Shown one piece after another: positions 140-47,602 of a stretch of DNA of 64,000 bases. Location: positions 62,001 to 126,000 of the forward strand of contig JANQSG010000019.1 in NCBI GenBank assembly GCA_028284185.1. The letters run 5' to 3'. Position numbers and translations under genes: made by a program. The DNA comes from Kangiella sp. Lineage in GTDB: Bacteria; Pseudomonadota; Gammaproteobacteria; Enterobacterales; Kangiellaceae. Each line of letters opens with the position of its first letter. Within the stretch, counting starts at the first letter, position 1. Below the pieces are notes generated by a model that was not told the origin of the DNA, searched no databases, and worked only from the letters and a program-made list of their open reading frames with translations.

Positions 140-243
140 TTATTCGTTTCAGTACCAGGCAAAGCGTTTCAAGGCGAGACGTCGTTTGCTCTAGCAAATG
201 AGTTAAGGCTTGGAATGCTTTAACACAGTAATGAAGCGAATAA
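140..243 (+). repeat. Nested-hairpin intergenic repeat, copy B
   Basis: It starts at the base after copy A and ends one base before the gcvH stop codon. The outer stem pairs TTATTCGTTTCA (140-151) with TGAAGCGAATAA (232-243), with one T-G pair. The second stem pairs AAAGCGTTTCAAG (161-173) with CTTGGAATGCTTT (209-221), all 13 positions including two G-T pairs. The inner hairpin TTTGCT-CT-AGCAAA (185-198) has the same stem as copy A and is followed by TGAG. The internal-loop bases AGGC and AAC recur. Variable stems held together partly by wobble pairs suggest RNA-level folding. Confidence 0.65.
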
Positions 244-244
244 A

Positions 245-634
245 TTAGTCGTCGGCAATTTCTTCTGCGTACTGCTCTGCCGATAAAAGTCCGCCTAAAT
301 CACCAGCATCCGCCAGCTGCATCTTGAACATCCAACCATCGCCATAAGGATCACTGTTGACCAGTTCAGGTGAATCTTCCAGTTCTTCATTCACTTCCAG
401 AATAGTACCGGCCAATGGTGCATAAATATCTGAAGCTGCTTTTACCGACTCAACCACGGCAATTTCATCATCCGCCTCAACCTCTTCATCCAGATCCGGC
501 GCTTCCACAAAAACCACATCGCCCAGCAATTCCTGCGCATGATCGGTAATACCAACGGTTACCACGCCATCACCCTCATCACGGATCCATTCATGGCTTG
601 CTACATATTTTAATTCTGATGGAATTTGGCTCAT
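245..634 (-). CDS. gcvH: Glycine cleavage system H protein
   Basis: GcvH is the small lipoylated shuttle of the glycine cleavage complex. It carries the aminomethyl group from the P-protein to GcvT and the electrons on to the L-protein. The 129 residues match the usual length. The lipoyl-lysine lies in [16 protein letters not shown] (Lys65), the hallmark of the family. The ATG follows an AGGGG ribosome-binding site about nine bases upstream. The gene follows gcvT on the same strand with 124 bp between them, which suggests an operon. The gcvP gene would be expected beyond the left edge and is not seen. Two repeat copies fill the space after its stop codon. Confidence 0.97.
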
Positions 635-758: not shown

Positions 759-1847
759 TTAAACCAGTGACTCACCTTTACGCACAAAACAAGGCTTCAC
801 AACTACTGCTTTCAGTTGCTTTTTACGCACTTGTACCAAAACTTCCTCAGCTTGTACACTACGATTAACTCGCGCCATAGCAATGGATTTGCCCACCGTT
901 GGCGACATAGTACCAGAAGTAATTACACCCACCACTTGCTCATCGATCACCACTTCCTGGCCTTCACGCATCACACCTTTGTCTTGTAACACCAGACCTA
1001 TAAGCTTACGCGGAATACCTTGTTCTTTTTGCGCTGCCAAAGCCTTGCGCCCCACAAAATCACGTTCAGCGGGCTCCCAGGCAATGGTCCAGCCCATATT
1101 GGCTTCCAATGGCGAAACCGTCTCATCCATATCATGACCATACAGATTCATACCAGCCTCAAGGCGTAAAGTATCACGGGCGGCTAAACCTGCTGGCTTA
1201 ACACCGGCGGCTTGCAAGCGCTTCCAAACCTCAATACCTTGTTCATCGGGTACCATAATTTCATAACCATCTTCGCCAGTATAGCCAGTACGCGCCACAA
1301 ACCAAGAACCCGCCTGAACCGCCACAAAAGGCTTTAAACCTTCAACCACGGCCTGTTGCTCAGCATCCATTATCGAATTGGCTTTTTCAATGGCATTCGG
1401 GCCTTGCACTGCAATCATGGCCACATCGGATTTTTCTTCTATCGCCACAGCAAACTGCTGCGCCACATTTTCCATCCAGGCCAGATCTTTGTCGCGAGTG
1501 GATGCGTTGACTACCACACGATAATGGTTGTCCGTTAGATAATAGACAATTAAATCATCGATCACGCCGCCTTCTTCATTCAGCATGCCGCTATACAAGG
1601 CTTTACCAGAAACTTGCAGTTTATCCACATCATTGGCTAATAAATACTGCAAATAGGGTTTGGCTTCAGAACCAGTAACTTCCACTACTGTCATGTGAGA
1701 CACGTCGAACATACCCGCATCCTGACGCACCGCATGATGCTCATCAATTTGCGAGCCATAATTGAGCGGCATATCCCAACCGCCAAAATCCACAATGCGC
1801 GCGTCCGCATCCAGATGTGCTTGATATAAAGGAGTTTTATTAGCCAT
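759..1847 (-). CDS. gcvT: Glycine cleavage system aminomethyltransferase (T protein)
   Basis: GcvT releases ammonia from the aminomethyl-lipoyl arm of GcvH and passes the one-carbon unit to tetrahydrofolate. The 362 residues are full length for the bacterial family. The N-terminal folate-binding fold shows [13 protein letters not shown] and FDVSHM, the middle shows [10 protein letters not shown], and the C-terminal barrel is complete. The ATG follows a weak GGATAAAAT ribosome-binding site. Only 89 bp separate it from the upstream iron-permease gene on the same strand, and no glycine riboswitch fold is evident there, so its regulation is unclear from the sequence. Confidence 0.97.
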
Positions 1848-12624: not shown

Positions 12625-12646
12625 TAACTTATGTTATGATAATTAT

Positions 12647-12820
12647 GCCTGGACTGTTCGTCAGTAGCGAACGTTCTTGAGCCGATAATATTTTTTTCGG
12701 GATGCCTTAGCTGGAAGTGTTGTGCAAGTCCGTTTCGACCGGAAAGCCTGATCATCCGCCTGGTTTCCCCCCTGAGCCTTTGGGTTCTAGGGCCTTTACC
12801 TACAACGGCAGTCTGGGTTT
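12647..12820 (+). ncRNA. ssrS: 6S RNA
   Basis: 6S RNA mimics an open promoter and sequesters sigma-70 RNA polymerase in stationary phase. The region lies between zapA and fthC, the standard 6S locus. The closing stem pairs GCCTGGACTG with CAGTCTGGGT (ending at 12818), with wobble pairs. CTTGAGCCGATAATAT, AAGCCTGATC and GAGCCTTTGGGTTC correspond to the conserved E. coli CUGAGCCGAUAUUU, AAGCCUUAAAA and GAACCAAGGGUUC segments. A TATGAT -10 box lies at 12635-12640. The length of about 174 nt is typical, and fthC begins four bases later, so read-through into it is likely, as in E. coli. Exact ends are estimates. Confidence 0.9.
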
Positions 12821-12823
12821 TTA

Positions 12824-25039: not shown

Positions 25040-28000
25040 CTACTCTATTTCATTCCAATCGGCCAGCGCCTTCTCTAAAGTAGCTTCACTGCTTTCCAGT
25101 AACTTTTCAACTTCGAATGCCGGCAATGGCTGGCTGAAGATAAATCCTTGAATTTCTTCACATTTCATTGCTCTTAAGGCTTCAAGCTGTTCAATAGTTT
25201 CAACTCCTTCAGCCACCACCTTTACACCTAAGTTATGGGCTAATGTAACAATTGAGGCAACTAGCTGCCGATCCCTTTTCGAATCATCCAGATCCCAAAC
25301 AAATGATCGATCAATCTTCAAGGTATCAATAGGGAAATCCTTTAAATTTCCTAAAGACGAATAGCCGACCCCAAAGTCATCCAAAGCTAATGAAACCCCC
25401 ATTTCTTTAAGGCTATTCATCTGCTGAATCGAATGGGACAGATCCTGCATGACCATTCCTTCAGTAATTTCAAATTCAATAGTGCTGGCATCCAGCTTGG
25501 ATAAATGAAGCGCATTTTTAACCGTTTGCCAAAGATTTTCGTGATAAAACTGTATGGCAGATAAATTAATCGCGATTTTCCCTTTAAAAAGCCCACGTTT
25601 TTGCCAATCTTTAACCTGAATACAGGTTTTTTCTATAACTTGCTGACTGATTGGAATAATCAAACCCGATTCTTCGGCTAACGGAATAAATTCATTTGGC
25701 GAAACCAAACCACGCTCTTCATTACGCCAGCGCACCAAAGCTTCAAAACCACTAATATCACCCGTTTCCAAGCTGACTTTTGGTTGATAAAAAACCAGGA
25801 ACTCATCTTTTTCAATGGCTTGGCGCAGATCGTTTTCCAGGCTCAGGCGTATTTTTGCCTGCTCATTCATTTGATTCGTATAGAACTGGAAGGTATTTTT
25901 GCCCTTCTTCTTGGCATAATACATCGCCGTATCAGCATTCCGTAATAGTTCTTCGGCAGTTTCACCATTTTCCGGATACATGACGATACCAATACTGGGC
26001 GAAACTATGACTTCATTAGCAGACAACTGTAATGTATGTGCAAAACGATCCAATATCTGCTGTGCTGTCCCTGCTGCCAAATTCCAGGCCTCAATATTTT
26101 GCAAAAAGACGATAAACTCATCACCACCAAAACGTGCGACCATATCTTTTTCAGTATTGACAATTTTGCCAAGTATTTCTGCGACTCTAATTAATAATTC
26201 ATCACCAACCCCATGCCCTAAGGAGTCATTAATTCTTTTAAAATTATCTAAATCAATAAATAACAAAGCATGTCGCTGGCTACTATCAGAATGACTTAAA
26301 ATCATCTCCACTTCACTATGGAACGTATTACGGTTAGGCAGATTGGTCAGTTGATCGGTAGTTGCCAAACGGCGTAATTCCTTTTCCGCTCGTTTACGAT
26401 AAGTAATATCTGAAAAAACCCCTACATAATTAATAATATTGCCATCATTATCACGTACAACATTAATGTTGATCTCTATCGGATAAACACTGCCATTACT
26501 TCTGATCGCTTCCAGCTCGCCATGCCAGGTTCCCTTTTTATCCAGAATAGCTCTTAATTTCTTATAAAAATCCTGATTCATGCCATCAATAGCATTTTCA
26601 TCCATAGTTGAGCCAATCACATCCTCTTCGCTATAACCAGTGATAGTTTCAAAGGCTTTATTGATTACCACATAATTCAAATTAGCATCTAAAATCCAGA
26701 CTGCATCAGAAATATTTTCAAAAGACTTGGCAATCACACTTAAGCGTTGTTCGGCATCTTTGATTTCAGTAATGTTTTTTAAAGTACCAGCCATCCGAAT
26801 AGGCGTTTCACCGTCAAACTCAACCACCTTGCCTTGATCCAGCACCCAGATCCAACCGTCTGCGTCATTCTGCAAGCGATAGGTGCTTTCAAAGTGTTGT
26901 GATTTACCTCTTATATGGGAGCTTAATGCCTGCTTTACATAGGCTAGGTCATTCGGATGTATATTGGAGTGAGCATCTGAATAACCACTTCTGATACCAT
27001 CACGGGGGAAGTCTATATCCCACTCATTAGATAAATGCAGTGCACCAGATCCAATATCCCAATCCCACAGTTCATCGCCACTGCCCCATAGCGATAATTT
27101 TAGTCGCTCCTCACTCTCTTCCAACTTGGTTTGCGCCGCACGCCGCTCTTTGTTACGTGACTGGAACATACTAAAAGCTATTAACAACAATGAGCTTGAG
27201 ATGGCAATATAAAATCCCAATGCCCATGTCGACAAAAATGGCGAAGGCCTTACCTTAACACTTAAATCAACCGATTGAGGATTCCAGATACCATCTTTAT
27301 TAGCGGCCATTAATCTGAATACATAGCTCCCTGACTTCAATTTAGGATAAACTGCACGGCGATGATGCGCACCGACTTCATACCACTCTTTATCGTATCC
27401 TTCTAACTTATAGCGAAAGCGATTATCTTCAGGATTAGTATATTGCAAGTTACTAAATTCAAGAATTAAAGAAGTGTCTTGGTGATGCAAGCTAATCTCA
27501 GGACTAATATTGACCGGAACCGAAACATGAGCATCTTCATCAGCTCCAATTTTTGCCAGCTTGTTATTAACTAAAATTTTGGTGATAACGGGTCTGGCCA
27601 GACTTTCGTCTTTAACATATTTTTTAGGATCAAAGCCGATAATTCCATTAATCCCACCTAAAAAAATACGCCCTTTGCGATCAATGATTTTAGAGCCTAA
27701 ATTAAAGTCGTGTATCGGCTGTCCCTGCTCTAAAGAAAAATGAGCCAAACTAAAATTGGTAGGATCCAGTCGAAATAAGCCTCCCGCCGTAGCCAACCAC
27801 AAATTGTAGTGCTTATCCTGTTGAATAGAATACACAACGTTGTTTAATGAAGAGTTTTTATTATTAATCTCCATGATTTTCTGGGTAGTAAAATCTAAAC
27901 GCAACAAACCATTACCATAAGTTGCAACCCATAAGCGTCCATGTAAATCTTTATCCAAATCAAAAATAGGCGTCATTAAAGCTATTGGCGCATTTTCTAT

Positions 28001-29596
28001 TAACTTACCAATCTCAGTAAACTGTCCATTGTTAGTATCATACTTAATCAAACCTTGTTCGGTTGCCAACCAGATTGAGTCCTTTTCAAAAAGCAAATCA
28101 TAAACATGATTCTTGGGGCTAAAACTCTGCTGATCCACCAAGATGTGCTGTTTAATGTTGCCATCTTCAAGCAACCAAAGACCTTTTGAACTGGTGATCC
28201 ATAATTTGCCTTGCCGGTAGTGCGCCGAAAAAAGTGAGGCATTATCAAAATCCAATTCTGAATATTTTTGAAAGCTATTTTTAGCTTTATCATACGACCA
28301 TAAACTATCTGCTGTCATAATCCATAAATAGCCAATAGATCCTTCAACAATACTGTTAATTGAATAACCATTATCTGCAAACTTAATGTTCGGATCGACT
28401 ATAAAATCACGTCCCTGTGGTTTTAACACTGATAAACCATTAAGCTCGCTACCTGCCCATAACCAGCCATCAGAATCTATGGTTAATGAAAAAATAGAGT
28501 CTCCAGTAAGACTATTTTCTTGTTCAGACTTTTTGTAATAGTGAGAAAACTTTAAACTATTAATATTGATACGATGTAAATTGGCATCTGTACCAACCCA
28601 TAACAAATTATCAGCATCCTGCAATAAACTATTCACATGGTTGGCACCAATGCGTTCCAGCTTAGAACCCTTGTAGCCATAATAATCACTGGTGTTTTTT
28701 TCTAAATCAATAAAATAAAGTCCGTTTTCCTCAGTGCCGATTAAAATTAACTGCGGCTCAACCACTAATACTTCACTAATTTTTATGTCGGAAGCGCTAA
28801 TACCAAAATTAGATAAGGCTAAGGGTTCTACTTGTTTGGTGCTCCATTGCAACCGATATAAGCGCTTGTCAGCAACAATTAAAAGATGGTTGTCAGCAAG
28901 CGGCAATATTTTGTTAATAGTGCCCAGGGACTGACTTAACTCTACTATTTCAAACTGACCTTTTTTATTATTAAGGATAGCAATTTTGCCTGTGGTGGTT
29001 CCTAAAATTATGGTTTCTTTTATTTGACTGAGACTGCTAATTTCTTGCATAGACTCTTTGATATCAAATGAGTTCAACAAAGGGAATTTTTTGAAGCTTT
29101 GGGTGGCTGCTTGATACAAGAAAATACCGTTAGAGGTTCCAATCCATACATTCCCATCTTTACCACTTAATAAACTGAAAATTCGATCATCAACAATAGA
29201 AAAGGGATCACCTGGATTATGGAGAAAATTTAGAAGCTCACCTTTATCCTGCAAAAATACATTCAAGCCATGCTCGGTGCCAATCCAGACATTACCCGCA
29301 GAATCGGTAGTCAAGACATTAATTTCGTCAAAGCTGAGGGCAGAATTAGCGCTAAAATACTGTTCAACCTGATAGCCATCATAGCGATTAAGACCGGCCT
29401 GGGTGCCAATCCAGATAAATCCCTGTTGATCCTGAGTCAGTGCCGTCACAACAGCCTGAGTTAATTCATTCTCAAGCTCAACTGGCTCAGGGGTAAACTC
29501 TTCAGCCTGACTAACAGGCAATACCCACAGCATAACGCCCAGTAAAATTGCTACTGTTATATTTCGCCTTTTAGCAACACCTGCTCCCAACCCCAA
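25040..29596 (-). CDS. Membrane sensor with beta-propeller, Y_Y_Y, PAS, GGDEF and EAL domains
   Basis: This 1518-residue protein has a signal peptide (to about SQAEEF). About a dozen propeller blades follow, of the form DxxGxxWIGTxxGL (QDQQGFIWIGTQAGLNRYDG and repeats), up to about residue 690. Then come a Y_Y_Y domain (YKLEGYDKEWYEVG, about 700-780), a membrane helix near 785-810, two PAS domains (about 820-1065), GGDEF (intact, near 1155) and EAL (GFEALVRW near 1284; DDFGVGYSSL near 1409). The RxxD inhibitory site before GGDEF is absent. It probably senses a periplasmic ligand and makes or degrades c-di-GMP. The start is TTG behind a GGAAGG ribosome-binding site. Confidence 0.9.
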   Translation of the reverse strand: MGLGAGVAKRRNITVAILLGVMLWVLPVSQAEEFTPEPVELENELTQAVVTALTQDQQGFIWIGTQAGLNRYDGYQVEQYFSANSALSFDEINVLTTDSAGNVWIGTEHGLNVFLQDKGELLNFLHNPGDPFSIVDDRIFSLLSGKDGNVWIGTSNGIFLYQAATQSFKKFPLLNSFDIKESMQEISSLSQIKETIILGTTTGKIAILNNKKGQFEIVELSQSLGTINKILPLADNHLLIVADKRLYRLQWSTKQVEPLALSNFGISASDIKISEVLVVEPQLILIGTEENGLYFIDLEKNTSDYYGYKGSKLERIGANHVNSLLQDADNLLWVGTDANLHRININSLKFSHYYKKSEQENSLTGDSIFSLTIDSDGWLWAGSELNGLSVLKPQGRDFIVDPNIKFADNGYSINSIVEGSIGYLWIMTADSLWSYDKAKNSFQKYSELDFDNASLFSAHYRQGKLWITSSKGLWLLEDGNIKQHILVDQQSFSPKNHVYDLLFEKDSIWLATEQGLIKYDTNNGQFTEIGKLIENAPIALMTPIFDLDKDLHGRLWVATYGNGLLRLDFTTQKIMEINNKNSSLNNVVYSIQQDKHYNLWLATAGGLFRLDPTNFSLAHFSLEQGQPIHDFNLGSKIIDRKGRIFLGGINGIIGFDPKKYVKDESLARPVITKILVNNKLAKIGADEDAHVSVPVNISPEISLHHQDTSLILEFSNLQYTNPEDNRFRYKLEGYDKEWYEVGAHHRRAVYPKLKSGSYVFRLMAANKDGIWNPQSVDLSVKVRPSPFLSTWALGFYIAISSSLLLIAFSMFQSRNKERRAAQTKLEESEERLKLSLWGSGDELWDWDIGSGALHLSNEWDIDFPRDGIRSGYSDAHSNIHPNDLAYVKQALSSHIRGKSQHFESTYRLQNDADGWIWVLDQGKVVEFDGETPIRMAGTLKNITEIKDAEQRLSVIAKSFENISDAVWILDANLNYVVINKAFETITGYSEEDVIGSTMDENAIDGMNQDFYKKLRAILDKKGTWHGELEAIRSNGSVYPIEININVVRDNDGNIINYVGVFSDITYRKRAEKELRRLATTDQLTNLPNRNTFHSEVEMILSHSDSSQRHALLFIDLDNFKRINDSLGHGVGDELLIRVAEILGKIVNTEKDMVARFGGDEFIVFLQNIEAWNLAAGTAQQILDRFAHTLQLSANEVIVSPSIGIVMYPENGETAEELLRNADTAMYYAKKKGKNTFQFYTNQMNEQAKIRLSLENDLRQAIEKDEFLVFYQPKVSLETGDISGFEALVRWRNEERGLVSPNEFIPLAEESGLIIPISQQVIEKTCIQVKDWQKRGLFKGKIAINLSAIQFYHENLWQTVKNALHLSKLDASTIEFEITEGMVMQDLSHSIQQMNSLKEMGVSLALDDFGVGYSSLGNLKDFPIDTLKIDRSFVWDLDDSKRDRQLVASIVTLAHNLGVKVVAEGVETIEQLEALRAMKCEEIQGFIFSQPLPAFEVEKLLESSEATLEKALADWNEIE

Positions 29597-31945: not shown

Positions 31946-32548
31946 ATGAATTACCAGCAAGCCAAATACTTATTAGGAGCTGCAAAATTACACCAACTGC
32001 CCGAAGATAAAGGTATTGAGGTGGCTTTTGCCGGGCGCTCCAATGCTGGTAAATCCAGTGCTTTAAATTGCCTCACTCAGCAAAAAAGCCTAGCTAGAAC
32101 CAGCAAAACACCGGGCCGTACTCAACTGATTAATGTCTTTACCCTGGACGATGCGAGGCGCTTAATTGACCTGCCTGGCTACGGCTATGCTAAAGTACCG
32201 CAAGCCATGAAAGAACAGTGGCAAGCAGAACTAGGGAAATACCTACAAACACGCCAATGTCTGCATGGTCTAGTGTTACTTATGGATATTCGCCATTTTC
32301 TAAAAGATACGGACGTGCAGATGCTGTCCTGGGCCTATCAAGTGGATCTGCCAGTGCATTGTTTATTGAATAAAGCCGACAAACTTAAATCCGGCGCCAA
32401 GTCAAAAGCCTTGATGCAATGTAAAAAACAACTTAAAGACCTTCATCCTGATGCCAGCGTGCAGGCTTTTTCATCACTCAAACGCCAAGGACTGGATCAA
32501 CTCTACGCCAAATTGGATCAGTGGTATGATCCACCCATGTTAAACTAA
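31946..32548 (+). CDS. engB: Ribosome biogenesis GTPase EngB (YsxC/YihA)
   Basis: EngB is an essential GTPase in large-subunit assembly. The 200 residues show all G motifs: GRSNAGKSS (G1), TPGRTQ (G2), [10 protein letters not shown] (G3), LLNKADKLK (G4) and the family end FSSLKRQGL (G5). It is divergent from cytochrome c4 and lies on the other side of the small-RNA locus from polA, as in many Gammaproteobacteria. Confidence 0.96.
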
Positions 32549-32571: not shown

Positions 32572-32988
32572 ATGAATCATAAACAAGCCAAAAAATACCT
32601 GCTAAACAAACCCGAAGCAATTGAAGGTTTTCCCTTTGGTCCGGAAGTTGCAGTGTTTAAAGTTAAAAACAAAATGTTTGCCACTTTAGCGCTCGGCACT
32701 GGCAATGAAAAAGGCACTCAAGGCAAGATGGCAGGCCATTGGTGCATGAATCTTAAATGTAAACCCGAAGATGCTGATGCCCTGCGCAGTATTTTTGATG
32801 CTATTATCCCAGGTTACCATATGAGCAAAACCCACTGGAACACTATTATCCTCGACGGCTCCATTCCACAAAGCGAAATTGAAAACCTGATCGACCATTC
32901 TTACAGCTTGATCGTCAAAAGCCTAAAGAAATCCGAACGTGAATTGTTAGAACTGCACTATCCCAAAGACAGGTTATATTCTGAGTAA
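32572..32988 (+). CDS. MmcQ/YjbR family DNA-binding-fold protein
   Basis: This 138-residue protein has the MmcQ/YjbR features: LLNKPEAIEGFPFGPEVAVFKVKNKMFA near the N-terminus, LNLKC-like WCMNLKCKPEDADALR in the middle and HWNTIILDGSIPQSEIENLIDHSYSLI at the C-terminal part. The CyaY-like fold is known structurally, but the function is not. It starts 23 bases after engB and is probably co-transcribed with it. Confidence 0.88.
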   Translation: MNHKQAKKYLLNKPEAIEGFPFGPEVAVFKVKNKMFATLALGTGNEKGTQGKMAGHWCMNLKCKPEDADALRSIFDAIIPGYHMSKTHWNTIILDGSIPQSEIENLIDHSYSLIVKSLKKSERELLELHYPKDRLYSE

Positions 32989-33010
32989 GACCTAACTATC
33001 TCTAGTAAAA

Positions 33011-33134
33011 TTTTTGTCGAATAATTTTTATATAGTGCGAGACTTTCGAGATTTGAGAAGCACAGTTGGTACTAACCCATGAGCACTCGGAAAATCTCGT
33101 ATAACGAAGCAATATAAAAAATTAGTTACAAAAA
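33011..33134 (+). repeat. Nested-hairpin intergenic repeat, copy D
   Basis: The outer stem pairs TTTTTGT with ACAAAAA (33011-33017 and 33128-33134), and TAATTTTTATAT (33022-33033) with ATATAAAAAATTA (33112-33124). The second stem pairs CGAGATTT (33047-33054) with AAATCTCG (33092-33099). The inner hairpin GTTGGTACTAAC is followed by CCATGAGC, and the 3' loop contains AACGAAGC. It is longer and more AT-rich than copies A to C. Its right end overlaps the T tract of the small-RNA terminator, so it too lies directly after a minus-strand transcript. Confidence 0.55.
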
Positions 33135-33165
33135 GAATAAAAGAAGGGGCTCAAAACGAGCCCCT
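33131..33165 (-). terminator. Rho-independent terminator of the candidate small RNA
   Basis: AGGGGCTC and GAGCCCCT (33145-33152 and 33158-33165) form a perfect 8-bp GC-rich stem around a 5-base loop. On the minus strand a T-rich tract (TTCTTTTATTCTTTT) follows; on the plus strand there is no T tract. Confidence 0.88.
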
Positions 33166-33249
33166 CAAAAAACACAGTCCGACTTGGGGAGGCCAAACTG
33201 TAATACCCGCAAGAAGGAGGGAGTCGCGGGGAGGACATTCATTGTCCTC
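33131..33249 (-). ncRNA. Candidate structured small RNA downstream of polA (Spot 42/ErsA position)
   Basis: Four hairpins follow one another on the minus strand. They are GAGGACA-ATGAA-TGTCCTC (33249-33231); CCCGC/GCGGG (33230-33206) with a loop holding CTCCCTCCTT; ACAGT/ACTGT (33201-33174) enclosing TTGG-CCTCC-CCAA; and a strong terminator. Two loops expose CCUCC, complementary to Shine-Dalgarno sequences. A TATATA/ATTATA -10 region (33251-33258) lies upstream, near a TTACC-CC-GGTAA dyad (33266-33277). The strand and the place between polA and engB match Spot 42 in E. coli and ErsA in Pseudomonas, but I see no sequence match to Spot 42. Expression and ends are inferred. A 25-codon frame (33242-33165) lies inside. 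Confidence 0.7.
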
Positions 33250-33370
33250 ATATATAATGACCGTGTTACCCCGGTAAATGTTGCAAATTTTTTGTAAGCC
33301 TTTTGTAAAGACTTGTATCACAATTGTAAGATCAAGAGCTTATTCTCATTTTCATCTGTTCTTTTGGCTT

Positions 33371-36103
33371 TTAATGGGCTTGATCCCAGTTATCGCCTAC
33401 CCCAACATCGGCCATCAATGGAACCGAAAGTTTGACCACTGATGCCATGATAGCTGGGATCGCTTCTTGTGCCTGTTGCAACTTATCTTCTGCCACTTCA
33501 AACACTAATTCATCATGCACCTGCATGATCATTTTGATGCCATCTTGCTCTTGTAGCCATTCATTCACTTTTAACATTGCCAGTTTGATAATATCGGCAG
33601 CGCTACCTTGCATAGGCGCATTAATCGCAGTGCGCTCGGCCGCCTTGCGTCTTAGCCCATTCTTGGAATTAATTTCCGGCAGATACAAACGACGACCAAA
33701 TAGCGTTTCCACATAACCCAACTCAGCAGCTTTTTCCTTAGTGGATTCCATGTAAGTTTCCACTCCCGGATAGCGGGCAAAATAGGTATTGATATAATCC
33801 TGCGCGGTATTGCGATCCGTATCAATTTGCTTAGCCAGACCAAAAGCGGACATGCCATAAATCAAGCCAAAATTAATGGCTTTGGCATTACGACGTTGGT
33901 TAGCAGTCACCTCATCAAGCTCTACCTCAAATACTTCCGCTGCGGTTGCTGAATGCACATCCAAACCATGAGCAAAAGCATCCAGTAAACCTTGATCCTG
34001 GGATAGATGTGCCATGATGCGTAATTCGATTTGCGAATAGTCTGCAGCCAAGATTTTATAGCCATTGGGTGCGACAAACGCCGTTCTGATGCTGCGTCCT
34101 TCTTGAGTTTTGATAGGAATATTCTGTAAATTCGGATCTTTAGAGGACAAACGACCAGTGGCGGCTACCGCCTGATGATAAGAGGTATGCACACGTCCAG
34201 TTGACGCATGGATCATTTGCGGCAACTTGTCCGTATAGGTTGATTTTAATTTCGACAAGCTACGATGTTCTAAAATCAGTTTCGGTAATGGATAATCCAG
34301 CGCCAACTCCTGTAGCACCTCTTCAGCAGTCGAGGGCTGGCCTTTCGGTGTTTTTTTAATTATCGGCAAACCCAGCTTTTCAAAAAAGATGACTTGCAAT
34401 TGTTTTGGTGAAGCCAAGTTAAACTCTTCGCCAGCAATCTCATAAGCTTCTCGCTCCAGCTCAACCAAACGCTCACCAAACTGATGGCTTTTCTCACCCA
34501 ATAAATGACCATCCACCAAAACACCATTTCTTTCTATCTCTGATAATACGTTCAACAATGGCATCTCGATTTCTTCAAAGATTTGCTTTGGCCCTTGCGC
34601 TTCTTTTAATTGCGGCCATAATTTCTGATGCAATTTCAAAGTAATATCGGCATCTTCAGCAGCATAGGGTGAAGCTTTTTCCAATTCAATCTGATCAAAG
34701 GTCAACTGGCTTTTACCTTTACCGGCAATATCTTCGAACTTGATATTGGCATGGTTTAAATGTAACAAAGCCAGTGAGTCCATATCATGGCGTGAAGCAA
34801 CACTATTTAAACAATAAGATTCGAGCATGGTATCAAACTCGATACCGCCTAACTCAACGTCATATTTAGCTAACACACTTTTATCATATTTTAAGTTTTG
34901 TCCTACTTTTTTATGTTCATCACTTTCGAGCAGGGTTTTCATTTCTGATAAAACCCAATGCCGCTCCAATTGCTCAGGCGCACCCATATAGTTATGTGCA
35001 ACCGGCAAATAAGCTGCCTCTATTTCTCCCTTAGTATTTTCAATAGCAAATGACATGCCTACCAATTCGGCTTCAATATAATCCAGGCTGGTAGTTTCGG
35101 TATCAAAGGCAAAAAGCGCTGCCTGTTCTAATTTTTTTATCCATTTGGTGAAGGCATCTTTACTCAGGATGGTTTCATATTTTGAGCGATCGATACTTGA
35201 CGAATCTTTTTCTGTTTCAACTTCTTCACCAGCAGCTTGCAACACTTCGGTCAGCCAACGCTTAAATTCCATTTCTCCATACAGTGCTTTAAGCTGAGTT
35301 AAATCCGGTTCCTTAATACTTAATTCCTGTGGTGATTGCGCTAAATTGCAATCCAGCTTAATGGTTGCCAACTCGTAGGAAAGCGGCAACTGCTCTAAAG
35401 CCGCACGTAAATTTTCACCAATCTTGCCGCCAACTTTATCCGCATTATCCATCACTCCTTGCAGACTTTCATATTCCGCTAACCATTTAACCGCAGTTTT
35501 GGGGCCACATTTTTCCACTCCAGGAATATTATCCACCTTGTCACCCACCAGCGCTAAATAATCAATGATTTGTTCAGGATTAACTCCGAATTTTTCGACA
35601 ACCCTTTCTCGATCAGTAATTGGGTGATTCTTATCCATAGTATTAATTAAGGTCACATGCCCCGTTACCAACTGCGCCATATCCTTATCACCTGTTGAGA
35701 TTAAAGTATCAATACCTGCTTTACTGGCTTGATCGGCCAAAGTACCAATCACATCATCCGCTTCTACTCCATCAATCACCAATAATGGCAAGCCCATAGC
35801 CTTAACGATCTCATGGATCGGCTGGATCTGGTCACGTAGCTCCTCCGGCATTGGTGGGCGATTGGCTTTATAGTCAGGATAAAGATCATTACGAAAAGTC
35901 TTGCCTTTGGCATCAAATACCACCGCCATATGGGTTGGTTGATATTCATTGAGCAAACTTTTCAACATATTAATGACACCAAATACCGCCCCTGTCATCA
36001 TGCCTTTGGAGTTAGTCATGCGCTGTAATTGCGGCACATGGAAGGCTCGAAACAGATAAGAGGAACCATCAACCAGAATAAAAGGCGCTTTTTTTTCGGA
36101 CAT
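33371..36103 (-). CDS. polA: DNA polymerase I
   Basis: Pol I fills gaps and removes RNA primers in repair and Okazaki fragment maturation. The 910 residues hold all three domains. The 5' nuclease (1-290) has DGVEADDVIGTLA and GDKVDNIPGV. The 3'-5' exonuclease (about 305-500) has intact FDTETTSLD, so proofreading is expected. The polymerase has motif A AADYSQIELRI, motif B RRNAKAINFGLIYG and motif C MQVHDELVFEV. No terminator is seen between its stop and the candidate small-RNA promoter 120 bases downstream. Confidence 0.98.
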   Translation of the reverse strand: MSEKKAPFILVDGSSYLFRAFHVPQLQRMTNSKGMMTGAVFGVINMLKSLLNEYQPTHMAVVFDAKGKTFRNDLYPDYKANRPPMPEELRDQIQPIHEIVKAMGLPLLVIDGVEADDVIGTLADQASKAGIDTLISTGDKDMAQLVTGHVTLINTMDKNHPITDRERVVEKFGVNPEQIIDYLALVGDKVDNIPGVEKCGPKTAVKWLAEYESLQGVMDNADKVGGKIGENLRAALEQLPLSYELATIKLDCNLAQSPQELSIKEPDLTQLKALYGEMEFKRWLTEVLQAAGEEVETEKDSSSIDRSKYETILSKDAFTKWIKKLEQAALFAFDTETTSLDYIEAELVGMSFAIENTKGEIEAAYLPVAHNYMGAPEQLERHWVLSEMKTLLESDEHKKVGQNLKYDKSVLAKYDVELGGIEFDTMLESYCLNSVASRHDMDSLALLHLNHANIKFEDIAGKGKSQLTFDQIELEKASPYAAEDADITLKLHQKLWPQLKEAQGPKQIFEEIEMPLLNVLSEIERNGVLVDGHLLGEKSHQFGERLVELEREAYEIAGEEFNLASPKQLQVIFFEKLGLPIIKKTPKGQPSTAEEVLQELALDYPLPKLILEHRSLSKLKSTYTDKLPQMIHASTGRVHTSYHQAVAATGRLSSKDPNLQNIPIKTQEGRSIRTAFVAPNGYKILAADYSQIELRIMAHLSQDQGLLDAFAHGLDVHSATAAEVFEVELDEVTANQRRNAKAINFGLIYGMSAFGLAKQIDTDRNTAQDYINTYFARYPGVETYMESTKEKAAELGYVETLFGRRLYLPEINSKNGLRRKAAERTAINAPMQGSAADIIKLAMLKVNEWLQEQDGIKMIMQVHDELVFEVAEDKLQQAQEAIPAIMASVVKLSVPLMADVGVGDNWDQAH

Positions 36104-36823: not shown

Positions 36824-38464
36824 ATGATAAAACGGCTACAGACAAAACTTCTACGTTCAGAGCTTCTGCGCTCCAAACAATTCTGGGACTTTTGCATTGT
36901 AACCGTTAGCATTATTGTCCTAACTCTTATCTTAACATCCATCGATGGCTTTGAATGGCTAGTTGAGTTCACCCGTACCTACGAGGATTGGGAACTGGAT
37001 GAGCTCTTAATTGCCGCACTACTTTCTCCAGCTTTTCTGACCTGGTTTGCCTATCGCCGTTGGCAAGAAGCAAAGCTTGAGGTGGAGAAGCGTAAAACAC
37101 GAGAATTCCAACTTGCCGAAACACAAGAACAACTTTCCTATAGTAGTACTCATGATGTATTAACTGGCCTTGTTAATCGGGCATCACTTACTGAACATCT
37201 GAAAACAACCATGATCGCTTCTAGCGAAACCAAAATGTTGGCGCTGGTTTATATTGATCTGGATGGTTTTAAAAGTATTAATGATTACTATGGCCGAGAT
37301 ACAGGCGACCTGCTGCTAATCGCATTAGCGGATCGTATGAAGCGAACTCTCAGAAGTAACGATATTTTGGCACGCTTTGGTGGTGACGAATTTGTGGTCA
37401 TACTGGATTATCTAACAGATACCACAGATGCCCATGTCAGAGTCAAAAGACTCTTGCAGATCATCTCGATACCATTACATTTGGATGATCATATTTTCCA
37501 AATATCAGCTTGCATGGGGGTAACTTTTTATCCTCAAACGGATACAGACAATGCCGATCGCTTGATCCGCCAAGCCGATCAGGCTTTACACCAAGCCAAA
37601 ATAAAAGGCAAAGGACAGTACCACTGTTTTGATCTTGAACATGATCGCTACACTAGAGACTACCACGCCAATCTGGAAGATATTCACCGCGGCTTAGATA
37701 AGGAAGAGTTTCTTTTCCACTACCAGCCTAAGGTGAATATGCGCACAGGTAAAGTAATTGGTGCAGAAGCTTTAATCCGTTGGCAACATCCCGATAAAGG
37801 GTTGCTGATGCCAGGACAGTTTTTACCTTTAATAGAAGATCATCCTTTATCGATTGAACTGGGTGTTTGGGTCATTAAAGCAGCTTTAGAGCAAATGAAA
37901 AAGTGGCAAATTGCTGGGCAGGATATACCGGTAAGTATTAACATTGGTCCCGACCAGTTGATGCAACCAAACTTTATAGAACATCTACAGACATCACTGG
38001 ATGCTCGGCCAGAACTTAAACCAGAAAACCTCACTCTGGAGGTATTGGAAACCAGCACTATCAAAGATATCAATCATGTCACCAAGATAATTCATGGCTG
38101 TCAGGCGCTTGGTGTGAAATTTGCTTTGGATGACTTTGGTACTGGTTACTCATCGTTAACTTACCTGAAACGCTTACCAGTGCATCTACTGAAAATTGAT
38201 CGCAGTTTTGTCGAAGATATGATTGAGAACCCAGAAGACTTGTCCATCATCAAAGGTATTCTGGCTCTTGCTAACACTTTTGAGCGTCAAGTCATTGCCG
38301 AGGGAGTGGAAACCATAGAGCACGGTCAATATCTGCTGCAAATTGGCTGTGAATTGGCCCAAGGTTATGGTATTGCGCGACCCATGCCAGCAGAAGCTCT
38401 GCCCGACTGGATTAACAACTGGAAACCTGATCCTAGCTGGAAAGAAACTCAATGTATAATCTAA
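36824..38464 (+). CDS. Membrane GGDEF-EAL protein (c-di-GMP cyclase/phosphodiesterase)
   Basis: The protein has 546 residues. One clear membrane helix (about 22-40) and a second hydrophobic segment (about 60-75) precede a short coiled coil, GGDEF (about 105-265) and EAL (about 280-530). RFGGDEFVVIL is intact and is preceded by RSND at the correct spacing, a full RxxD inhibitory site for c-di-GMP. The EAL domain keeps GAEALIRWQ and DDFGTGYSSLTYLKRLP, so both activities are possible. It lacks a recognisable sensor domain. It lies 88 bp after the NTF2-like gene. Confidence 0.93.
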   Translation: MIKRLQTKLLRSELLRSKQFWDFCIVTVSIIVLTLILTSIDGFEWLVEFTRTYEDWELDELLIAALLSPAFLTWFAYRRWQEAKLEVEKRKTREFQLAETQEQLSYSSTHDVLTGLVNRASLTEHLKTTMIASSETKMLALVYIDLDGFKSINDYYGRDTGDLLLIALADRMKRTLRSNDILARFGGDEFVVILDYLTDTTDAHVRVKRLLQIISIPLHLDDHIFQISACMGVTFYPQTDTDNADRLIRQADQALHQAKIKGKGQYHCFDLEHDRYTRDYHANLEDIHRGLDKEEFLFHYQPKVNMRTGKVIGAEALIRWQHPDKGLLMPGQFLPLIEDHPLSIELGVWVIKAALEQMKKWQIAGQDIPVSINIGPDQLMQPNFIEHLQTSLDARPELKPENLTLEVLETSTIKDINHVTKIIHGCQALGVKFALDDFGTGYSSLTYLKRLPVHLLKIDRSFVEDMIENPEDLSIIKGILALANTFERQVIAEGVETIEHGQYLLQIGCELAQGYGIARPMPAEALPDWINNWKPDPSWKETQCII

Positions 38465-47558: not shown

Positions 47559-47602
47559 GAGTAATATAAATTTGTAGCTGAAATATATTCAAGGAGGAAA
47601 GA

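Follow-up and report, generated by a model that had tools for sequence, protein, structure and literature searches.

Several described small RNAs (sRNAs) are encoded next to polA, the gene of DNA polymerase I. Spot 42 is under cAMP-CRP control. It occupies the slot downstream of polA (PMC3771888), while ErsA, described as strictly sigma22-dependent (PMC7565897), resides between polA and engB (PMC8575079). sX13 uses C-rich loops to repress mRNAs with G-rich motifs near their translation starts, and polA-linked sRNAs with such loops were discussed by the sX13 authors in 2013 (PMC3771888). Repression of mRNAs with G-rich motifs by sX13 is Hfq-independent. In the cuckoo/ar14 group, the motif CCUCCUCCC is found in every hairpin (PMC10746234, PMC3927594), and one such RNA, NfeR1, silences ntrB via loops that resemble the anti-Shine-Dalgarno (anti-SD) sequence (PMC10746234). 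A link between sX13 and ErsA was not found in print in the open-licence papers searched, and none of the papers listed by our literature search on sRNAs of Kangiella names this genus.

Here, we analysed a stretch of 64,000 nt from a Kangiella sp. genome of 2.5 Mb (hereafter 'the window'), in which a preliminary description had pointed to a hairpin cluster downstream of polA. The features it described are all present, so the observation is confirmed, while its interpretation is partly supported. We propose that the cluster encodes a candidate trans-acting, highly structured, envelope-stress-induced anti-SD repressor with its own sigmaE-type promoter (probability roughly 0.7). It apparently represents one branch of an old RNA family that is found widely and that envelope stress would induce.

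A structured RNA between polA and engB

The gene polA (33371..36103, Pfam DNA_pol_A) is encoded on the minus strand and ends at 33371; as described earlier, the hairpin cluster follows downstream on the same strand, with 143 nt between the end of the polA match and the model core of the sRNA. The RNA had also been placed before engB. It does lie in the polA-engB interval, but a YjbR-family gene (32572..32988, plus strand), convergent with the sRNA, intervenes before the engB-type gene for a ribosome-binding GTPase (MMR_HSR1; 31946..32548, plus strand). Two GGDEF-EAL proteins are encoded on either side of the polA region (25040-29596, minus strand; 36824-38464, plus strand). The window's only above-threshold Rfam match is 6S RNA (RF00013, 94.6 bits) at 12643-12823 on the plus strand.

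On the minus strand, the predicted fold consists of four hairpins in a row and has an energy of -49 kcal/mol, compared to -27.9 ± 3.2 in 200 dinucleotide-shuffled sequences (z -6.6), none of which was equally stable. The predicted sRNA of ~110 nt (33139..33250, minus strand), supported by fold z score and conservation and with an inferred 5' end (± ~5 nt), gives a z score of -6.3 when folded alone. Hairpin SL1 (33231..33249) is followed by SL2 (33206..33230), whose loop CUCCCUCCUU at 33223-33214 occurs as a single copy in the whole window and includes CCUCCUU, a portion of the 16S rRNA anti-SD sequence. SL3 (33173..33202) exposes the loop CUCCCCAA inside CCUCCCC (33192-33186). The last hairpin and its T tract (33131..33166) fit the pattern of an intrinsic terminator, as does SL3 at the level of this simple pattern (two matches vs 0.5 ± 0.9 in shuffles). 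Four hairpins ending in a terminator and two CUCC/CCUCC loops, as previously proposed, are thus borne out. These two loops are the C-rich loops of the window RNA, while 13 of 20 genus-level sequences have three if the terminator loop is counted, which is C-rich in them (GUUCCCUCAGG). In the clade of the window, the terminator loop is short and rich in U.

A DNA search matched 20 of 41 genomes, namely 19/20 of the genus, 1/5 from the rest of the family and 0/16 from the rest of the order; the sole genus genome without a match is 55% complete. All 20 fully matched loci (19 from the genus and one from a sister genus) adjoin polA, and a 21st, short match (L021) was dropped from the genus-level set. 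Exact matches to SL2 among named genomes comprised 12 stretches, all of them from Kangiella or Kangiellaceae and one from K. aquimarina DSM 16071. The hairpin loops are strongly conserved in close relatives: CUCCCUCCUU is identical in 20/20 genus-level sequences, across which SL3 keeps CCCCAAG. Compensatory changes occur in SL1, SL3 and the terminator stem of the 20 sequences, with two-sided changes in 3/6 pairs of SL1 and in 6/11 pairs of SL3, rising to 11/11 for SL3 in the class; the stem of SL2 shows no variation at genus level and covaries class-wide. In the genus covariation alignment (19 sequences, 17 distinct), 97.0% of cells are paired under the SL2 and SL3 structure given here, compared to 21-39.0% with slid partners, and two-sided changes affect 6/16 pairs. 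Because the stems covary across relatives, the cluster is more than a chance arrangement, and, judged from sequence, it is very likely an unannotated sRNA gene of ~110 nt.

An additional coding capacity had been suggested for the RNA on the basis of a 25-codon frame at 33242-33165. This frame is indeed open in the window, but its start and length vary among the 20 sequences: an ATG at the homologous place is found in just six, window included, and in the others the frame begins differently or lacks a start, is shifted, or ends at varying points. A dual function is not supported because the frame is not conserved. We thus rejected the peptide; an RNA that also encodes 25 residues appears exceedingly improbable, and the frame is best read as open by chance.

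Spread through the class and linkage to polA

Beyond the genus, covariance model R1 matched 35/40 genomes of the family at E <= 0.1. Among the family matches outside the genus, 5/16 lie within 0.5 kb of polA and one (G054) about 4 kb away, while no polA is found within ~5-8 kb upstream in 10/16, so that linkage to polA is not universal in the family. The RNA is located away from polA in the Kangiellaceae genera g3 and g4 (L081-L083, L085, L086, L095, L097-L099); the five of these nine for which the locus was read (L043, L045, L046, L049, L050) keep the hairpins and the promoter-like motif.

In the class, R1 matched 29/369 genomes. A second covariance model, R2, was derived from 40 chosen members and matched 103/369 class genomes at E <= 0.05 (112 matches in all), 20 of the 369 having supplied training sequences. 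Five presumed chance matches with odd folds and no polA or engB within reach were left out of the training set (L072, L074, L075, L076, L079), as were L059, L065, L067 and L069 (near-duplicates or at a contig edge) and nine loci of the genus that are almost identical to others. Ten members were retained for their hairpins although polA is not nearby (L043, L045-L047, L049, L050, L055, L062, L068, L070). The composition of R2 consequently reflects a selection of members in which linkage to polA played some part. In the R2 alignment, which is fitted to the model, two-sided changes affect 16/16 pairs and 94.6% of cells are paired compared to at most 43.2% in slid controls. With 103/369 class genomes matched, the earlier suggestion of a lineage-specific regulator is not supported.

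A polA gene was listed for 74 R2 matches, of which 39 lie up to 1.5 kb downstream of polA on its strand, two are adjacent and convergent, and 33 lie elsewhere; after removal of the training genomes, the respective numbers are 31, 1 and 28 (n=60). The 33 matches elsewhere include a locus with two tandem copies (L170 of G391, 238-624, minus strand) situated ~2.1-2.4 kb downstream of polA. For the 38 R2 matches without a listed polA, the gene was found upstream, on the same strand and within 1 kb in 10 fetched loci. We also fetched 60 polA-downstream stretches, two of them shortened by contig ends, from class genomes without a linked R2 match. R2 gave 15 matches in 14 of these stretches (E <= 0.1 for 95 kb), all on the polA strand and including the two G391 copies already found; the remaining 46/60 had no R2 match at E <= 0.1. 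A phylum-wide sample contained 2/374 matches at E <= 0.01, one being the window's own genome and the other L149, and a plasmid collection contained no match.

Could the cluster simply belong to polA, as its 3' UTR and terminator, rather than form a separate gene? The strand common to both and the distance of 143 nt from the end of the polA match would fit such an arrangement. However, the 10 extra-genus family matches without polA in the upstream region, the two class genomes in which the RNA is convergent to polA and a promoter-like motif conserved upstream of SL1 all argue against it, which makes this explanation very improbable compared to an sRNA gene of its own.

Some polA loci hold further RNA elements. 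In L105 (G225, 1499-2237) and L110 (G332, 1499-2417), both on the minus strand, four matches of the anti-hemB type each are found between polA and engB, and these tandem sRNA arrays are also matched by R2. In L163 (G186), a c-di-GMP-I riboswitch (77.9 bits; 1073-1157, minus strand) lies between polA and the RNA.

Promoter-like elements of the sigmaE type

Upstream of SL1, the window contains a -35-like GCAACAT (33278..33284), a degenerate form of GAACTT, and a sigmaE-type, -10-like GTCATTA (33255..33261) that reads GTCTTA or GTCTAT in many relatives, both on the minus strand and together giving GCAACAT-N16-GTCATTA. The GTC (33261-33259) is present in 20/20 genus-level sequences. The preliminary description had instead proposed a TATATA as -10. 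This hexamer is found in the window, in its close clade (L001-L006) and in scattered relatives, but it is absent from the rest of the genus, and GTC is what is conserved at that place; TATATA was hence rejected as a conserved -10. The TTACC-CC-GGTAA dyad noted previously is also in the sequence, at 33266-33277, but it sits between the -35-like and -10-like elements and is not kept in relatives, and we rejected it as a conserved operator. A generic sigma70 scan found no promoter.

Promoter motifs were counted in 21 of the 35 Kangiellaceae matches and, outside the family, in 30 loci; the presumed chance matches named above were again excluded. AAC-N17/18-GTC occurs in 21/21 of the Kangiellaceae loci (shuffles mean 0.55) and in 19/30 of the others (shuffles mean 0.6), leaving 11/30 without it. 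GAACTT-N15/17-GTC, which is close to the sigmaE consensus, occurs outside the family in 15/30 loci as an exact match and in 18/30 with at most one mismatch, where mononucleotide shuffles gave means of 0.0 and 0.5 (max 4), respectively. In Kangiellaceae, the exact form was found in 0/21 loci and a form with one mismatch in 4/21, some of these off the promoter place. At the level of sequence motifs, many class members thus carry a sigmaE-type promoter, of which the Kangiellaceae form is degenerate. The genome also encodes an RpoE that scores above the curated cut-off, and a GAACTT-N16-GTC precedes this match by ~250 nt. As the form in the window is degenerate, use of sigmaE at its promoter is no more than likely.

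A direct repeat, TTTAC-N6-CTTAC (33294..33309, minus strand), lies upstream of the -35 and is a possible activator box of the OmpR/CpxR type, given that the TTTAC repeat presumably resembles the boxes of these regulators. TTTAC-N5/6-TTTAC with at most one mismatch was found in 19 of 31 sequences (30 from Kangiellaceae and L136, related to one another), compared to a mean of 0.7 and a maximum of 3 in dinucleotide shuffles. In those 19 sequences, the repeat ends 11-13 or 21-22 nt before AAC, which corresponds to about one or two helical turns.

Relatives and predicted mode of action

No Rfam family exceeded its threshold at the RNA locus, and with lax settings the best match was sX14 (22 bits vs a threshold of 80). 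Several models nevertheless match some relatives, mostly below threshold (sX13, anti-hemB, ar14, ErsA). The model of sX13, an RNA of Xanthomonadaceae (RF02232, threshold 50 bits), has no match at threshold in the window, none at E up to 5 in 32900-33500 and none at E up to 1 in 17 genus-level loci; in the class, it matches 15/369 genomes at E <= 0.001, and the three above threshold are all polA-linked. These three real sX13 loci (L101-L103) are adjacent to polA like the window RNA, and sX13 shares with it hairpins with C-rich loops, one loop of sX13 being CUCCUCCCCAAG. R1 and RF02232 match the same place in G192, and R2 overlaps sub-threshold RF02232 matches in L104-L108 and L110. On the other hand, R2 gives the real sX13 loci just 11.5-14.4 bits (E 0.14-0.6), and these lack a GTC-type promoter motif; the sigmaE-type motif is absent from all three.

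Hairpins with CCUCC-type anti-SD loops are also found in anti-hemB, ar14, NfeR1 and the cuckoo RNAs, although the window loops CUCCCUCCUU and CCUCCCC are similar and not identical to the motif of the latter. The ar14 (RF02344) and anti-hemB (RF02837) models, with thresholds of 58.8 and 49.5 bits, do not match the window RNA, and among 17 genus-level loci they match L019 alone, below threshold (31.3 and 24.9 bits). RF02837 matches 13/20 (E <= 0.1) and 19/20 (E <= 0.05) loci in two sets found by R1 or R2, compared to 3/20 (E <= 0.05) in a set without an R2 match at E <= 0.1, and it exceeds its threshold at three polA-downstream loci (L163, L180, L183).

The model of ErsA, also named Pseudomon-1 (RF01719, threshold 50 bits), does not reach its threshold in the window, in 32900-33500 or in 17 genus-level loci, and its matches to the group members L064, L105 and L184 are below threshold. 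The two RNAs share the polA-engB slot, with a YjbR gene in between in the window, and an ErsA-type locus (L165, 121.3 bits, above threshold) has TGAACTT-N15-GTCATAG upstream. For the window, a sigmaE-class promoter is a candidate at the level of motifs, with a degenerate -35. They differ in that R2 scores L165 with 15.4 bits (E 0.0056 for 3.2 kb), over its terminator hairpin, and in that the predicted L165 fold is one hairpin plus a C-rich terminator loop.

Weak overlapping matches, position and loop chemistry link these RNAs into a group, for which we propose common descent, most tentatively in the case of ErsA. Convergent evolution of C-rich loops would be the alternative, though it leaves the shared position unexplained. 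We place the window RNA among the polA-linked C-rich-loop sRNAs, to whose described members it is related through intermediates. The 'third regulator' of the preliminary description hence stands as a structured sRNA in the polA slot and needs rewording with regard to its affiliation.

Could the window RNA be a carbon regulator of the Spot 42 type that, in this shared slot, has drifted too far to be recognised? In 23 genomes, Spot 42 (RF00021, threshold 80 bits) matches six (three above threshold), none of which has an R2 match, as if one RNA had replaced the other; yet 10/23 have neither. The new RNA family is present and Spot 42 absent in the six Kangiellaceae genomes and in G037. Apart from the slot downstream of polA, there is no match in sequence or structure to the window RNA: RF00021 stays below threshold in the window and matches 0/6 Kangiellaceae genomes, R2 reaches no more than 11.9 bits (E 0.49, not significant) on the six loci of Spot 42, the folded Spot 42-type loci L129 and L131 lack comparable C-rich loops, and intermediates matched by both models at one place were not found in the sample. 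Identity with Spot 42 was rejected on the absence of RF00021 and the R2 scores, as the preliminary description had anticipated, and hidden divergence from it is very unlikely. The window thus has no above-threshold match to Spot 42 or ErsA, the two models suggested at the outset.

A possible novelty is the wide spread of polA-linked C-rich-loop sRNAs in the class, often with a sigmaE-type promoter in common. We tentatively suggest, as a scenario that is possible but rather doubtful in its entirety, that throughout the class this slot originally belonged to one polA-linked anti-SD sRNA driven by sigmaE, that sX13, ErsA and the anti-hemB-like RNAs branched off from it and diverged, that Spot 42 took its place in some members of one order, and that Kangiellaceae added a response-regulator box, so that two envelope-stress systems would meet on one RNA. 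The results bear on a good part of the class and provide a searchable model and a testable regulatory logic.

In the proposed mechanism, envelope stress would activate transcription from the RNA's own promoter of the sigmaE (RpoE/AlgU) type, possibly with the assistance of a response regulator that binds the TTTAC repeat, and the terminator would end it. The rigid hairpins would expose unpaired CCUCC motifs, mimicking the anti-SD end of 16S rRNA. Through these motifs, the RNA could base-pair with several mRNAs at their G-rich ribosome-binding sites and thereby block translation. That the loops block ribosome-binding sites is a likely prediction by analogy with sX13 and NfeR1. Target prediction in the window led nowhere, as starts had been picked to favour pairing and a control was lacking. 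Apart from the RNA gene, the window holds a single AAGGAGG (47591-47597); the ORF behind it has no Pfam match, which is too weak a basis for naming a target. The 10-nt complement of the SL2 loop, AAGGAGGGAG, followed by ATG within 10 nt is absent from the window's genome and found in 2/20 genus genomes compared to one for the reversed control, so no perfect target is obvious.

Such near-absence of a perfect target in a genus in which the SL2 loop is fixed would also be expected of a sponge or decoy, whose CCUCC loops would sequester a protein or some other RNA instead of blocking ribosome-binding sites. The usual client of RNA sponges is CsrA, which binds GGA and not CCUCC. In addition, sX13, ErsA and NfeR1 all act on mRNAs, and we regard a sponge as unlikely, if less so than the other alternatives. 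For the preferred repressor, lack of a perfect 10-nt target implies that pairing would be shorter, like the eight nucleotides predicted for NfeR1 and ntrB.
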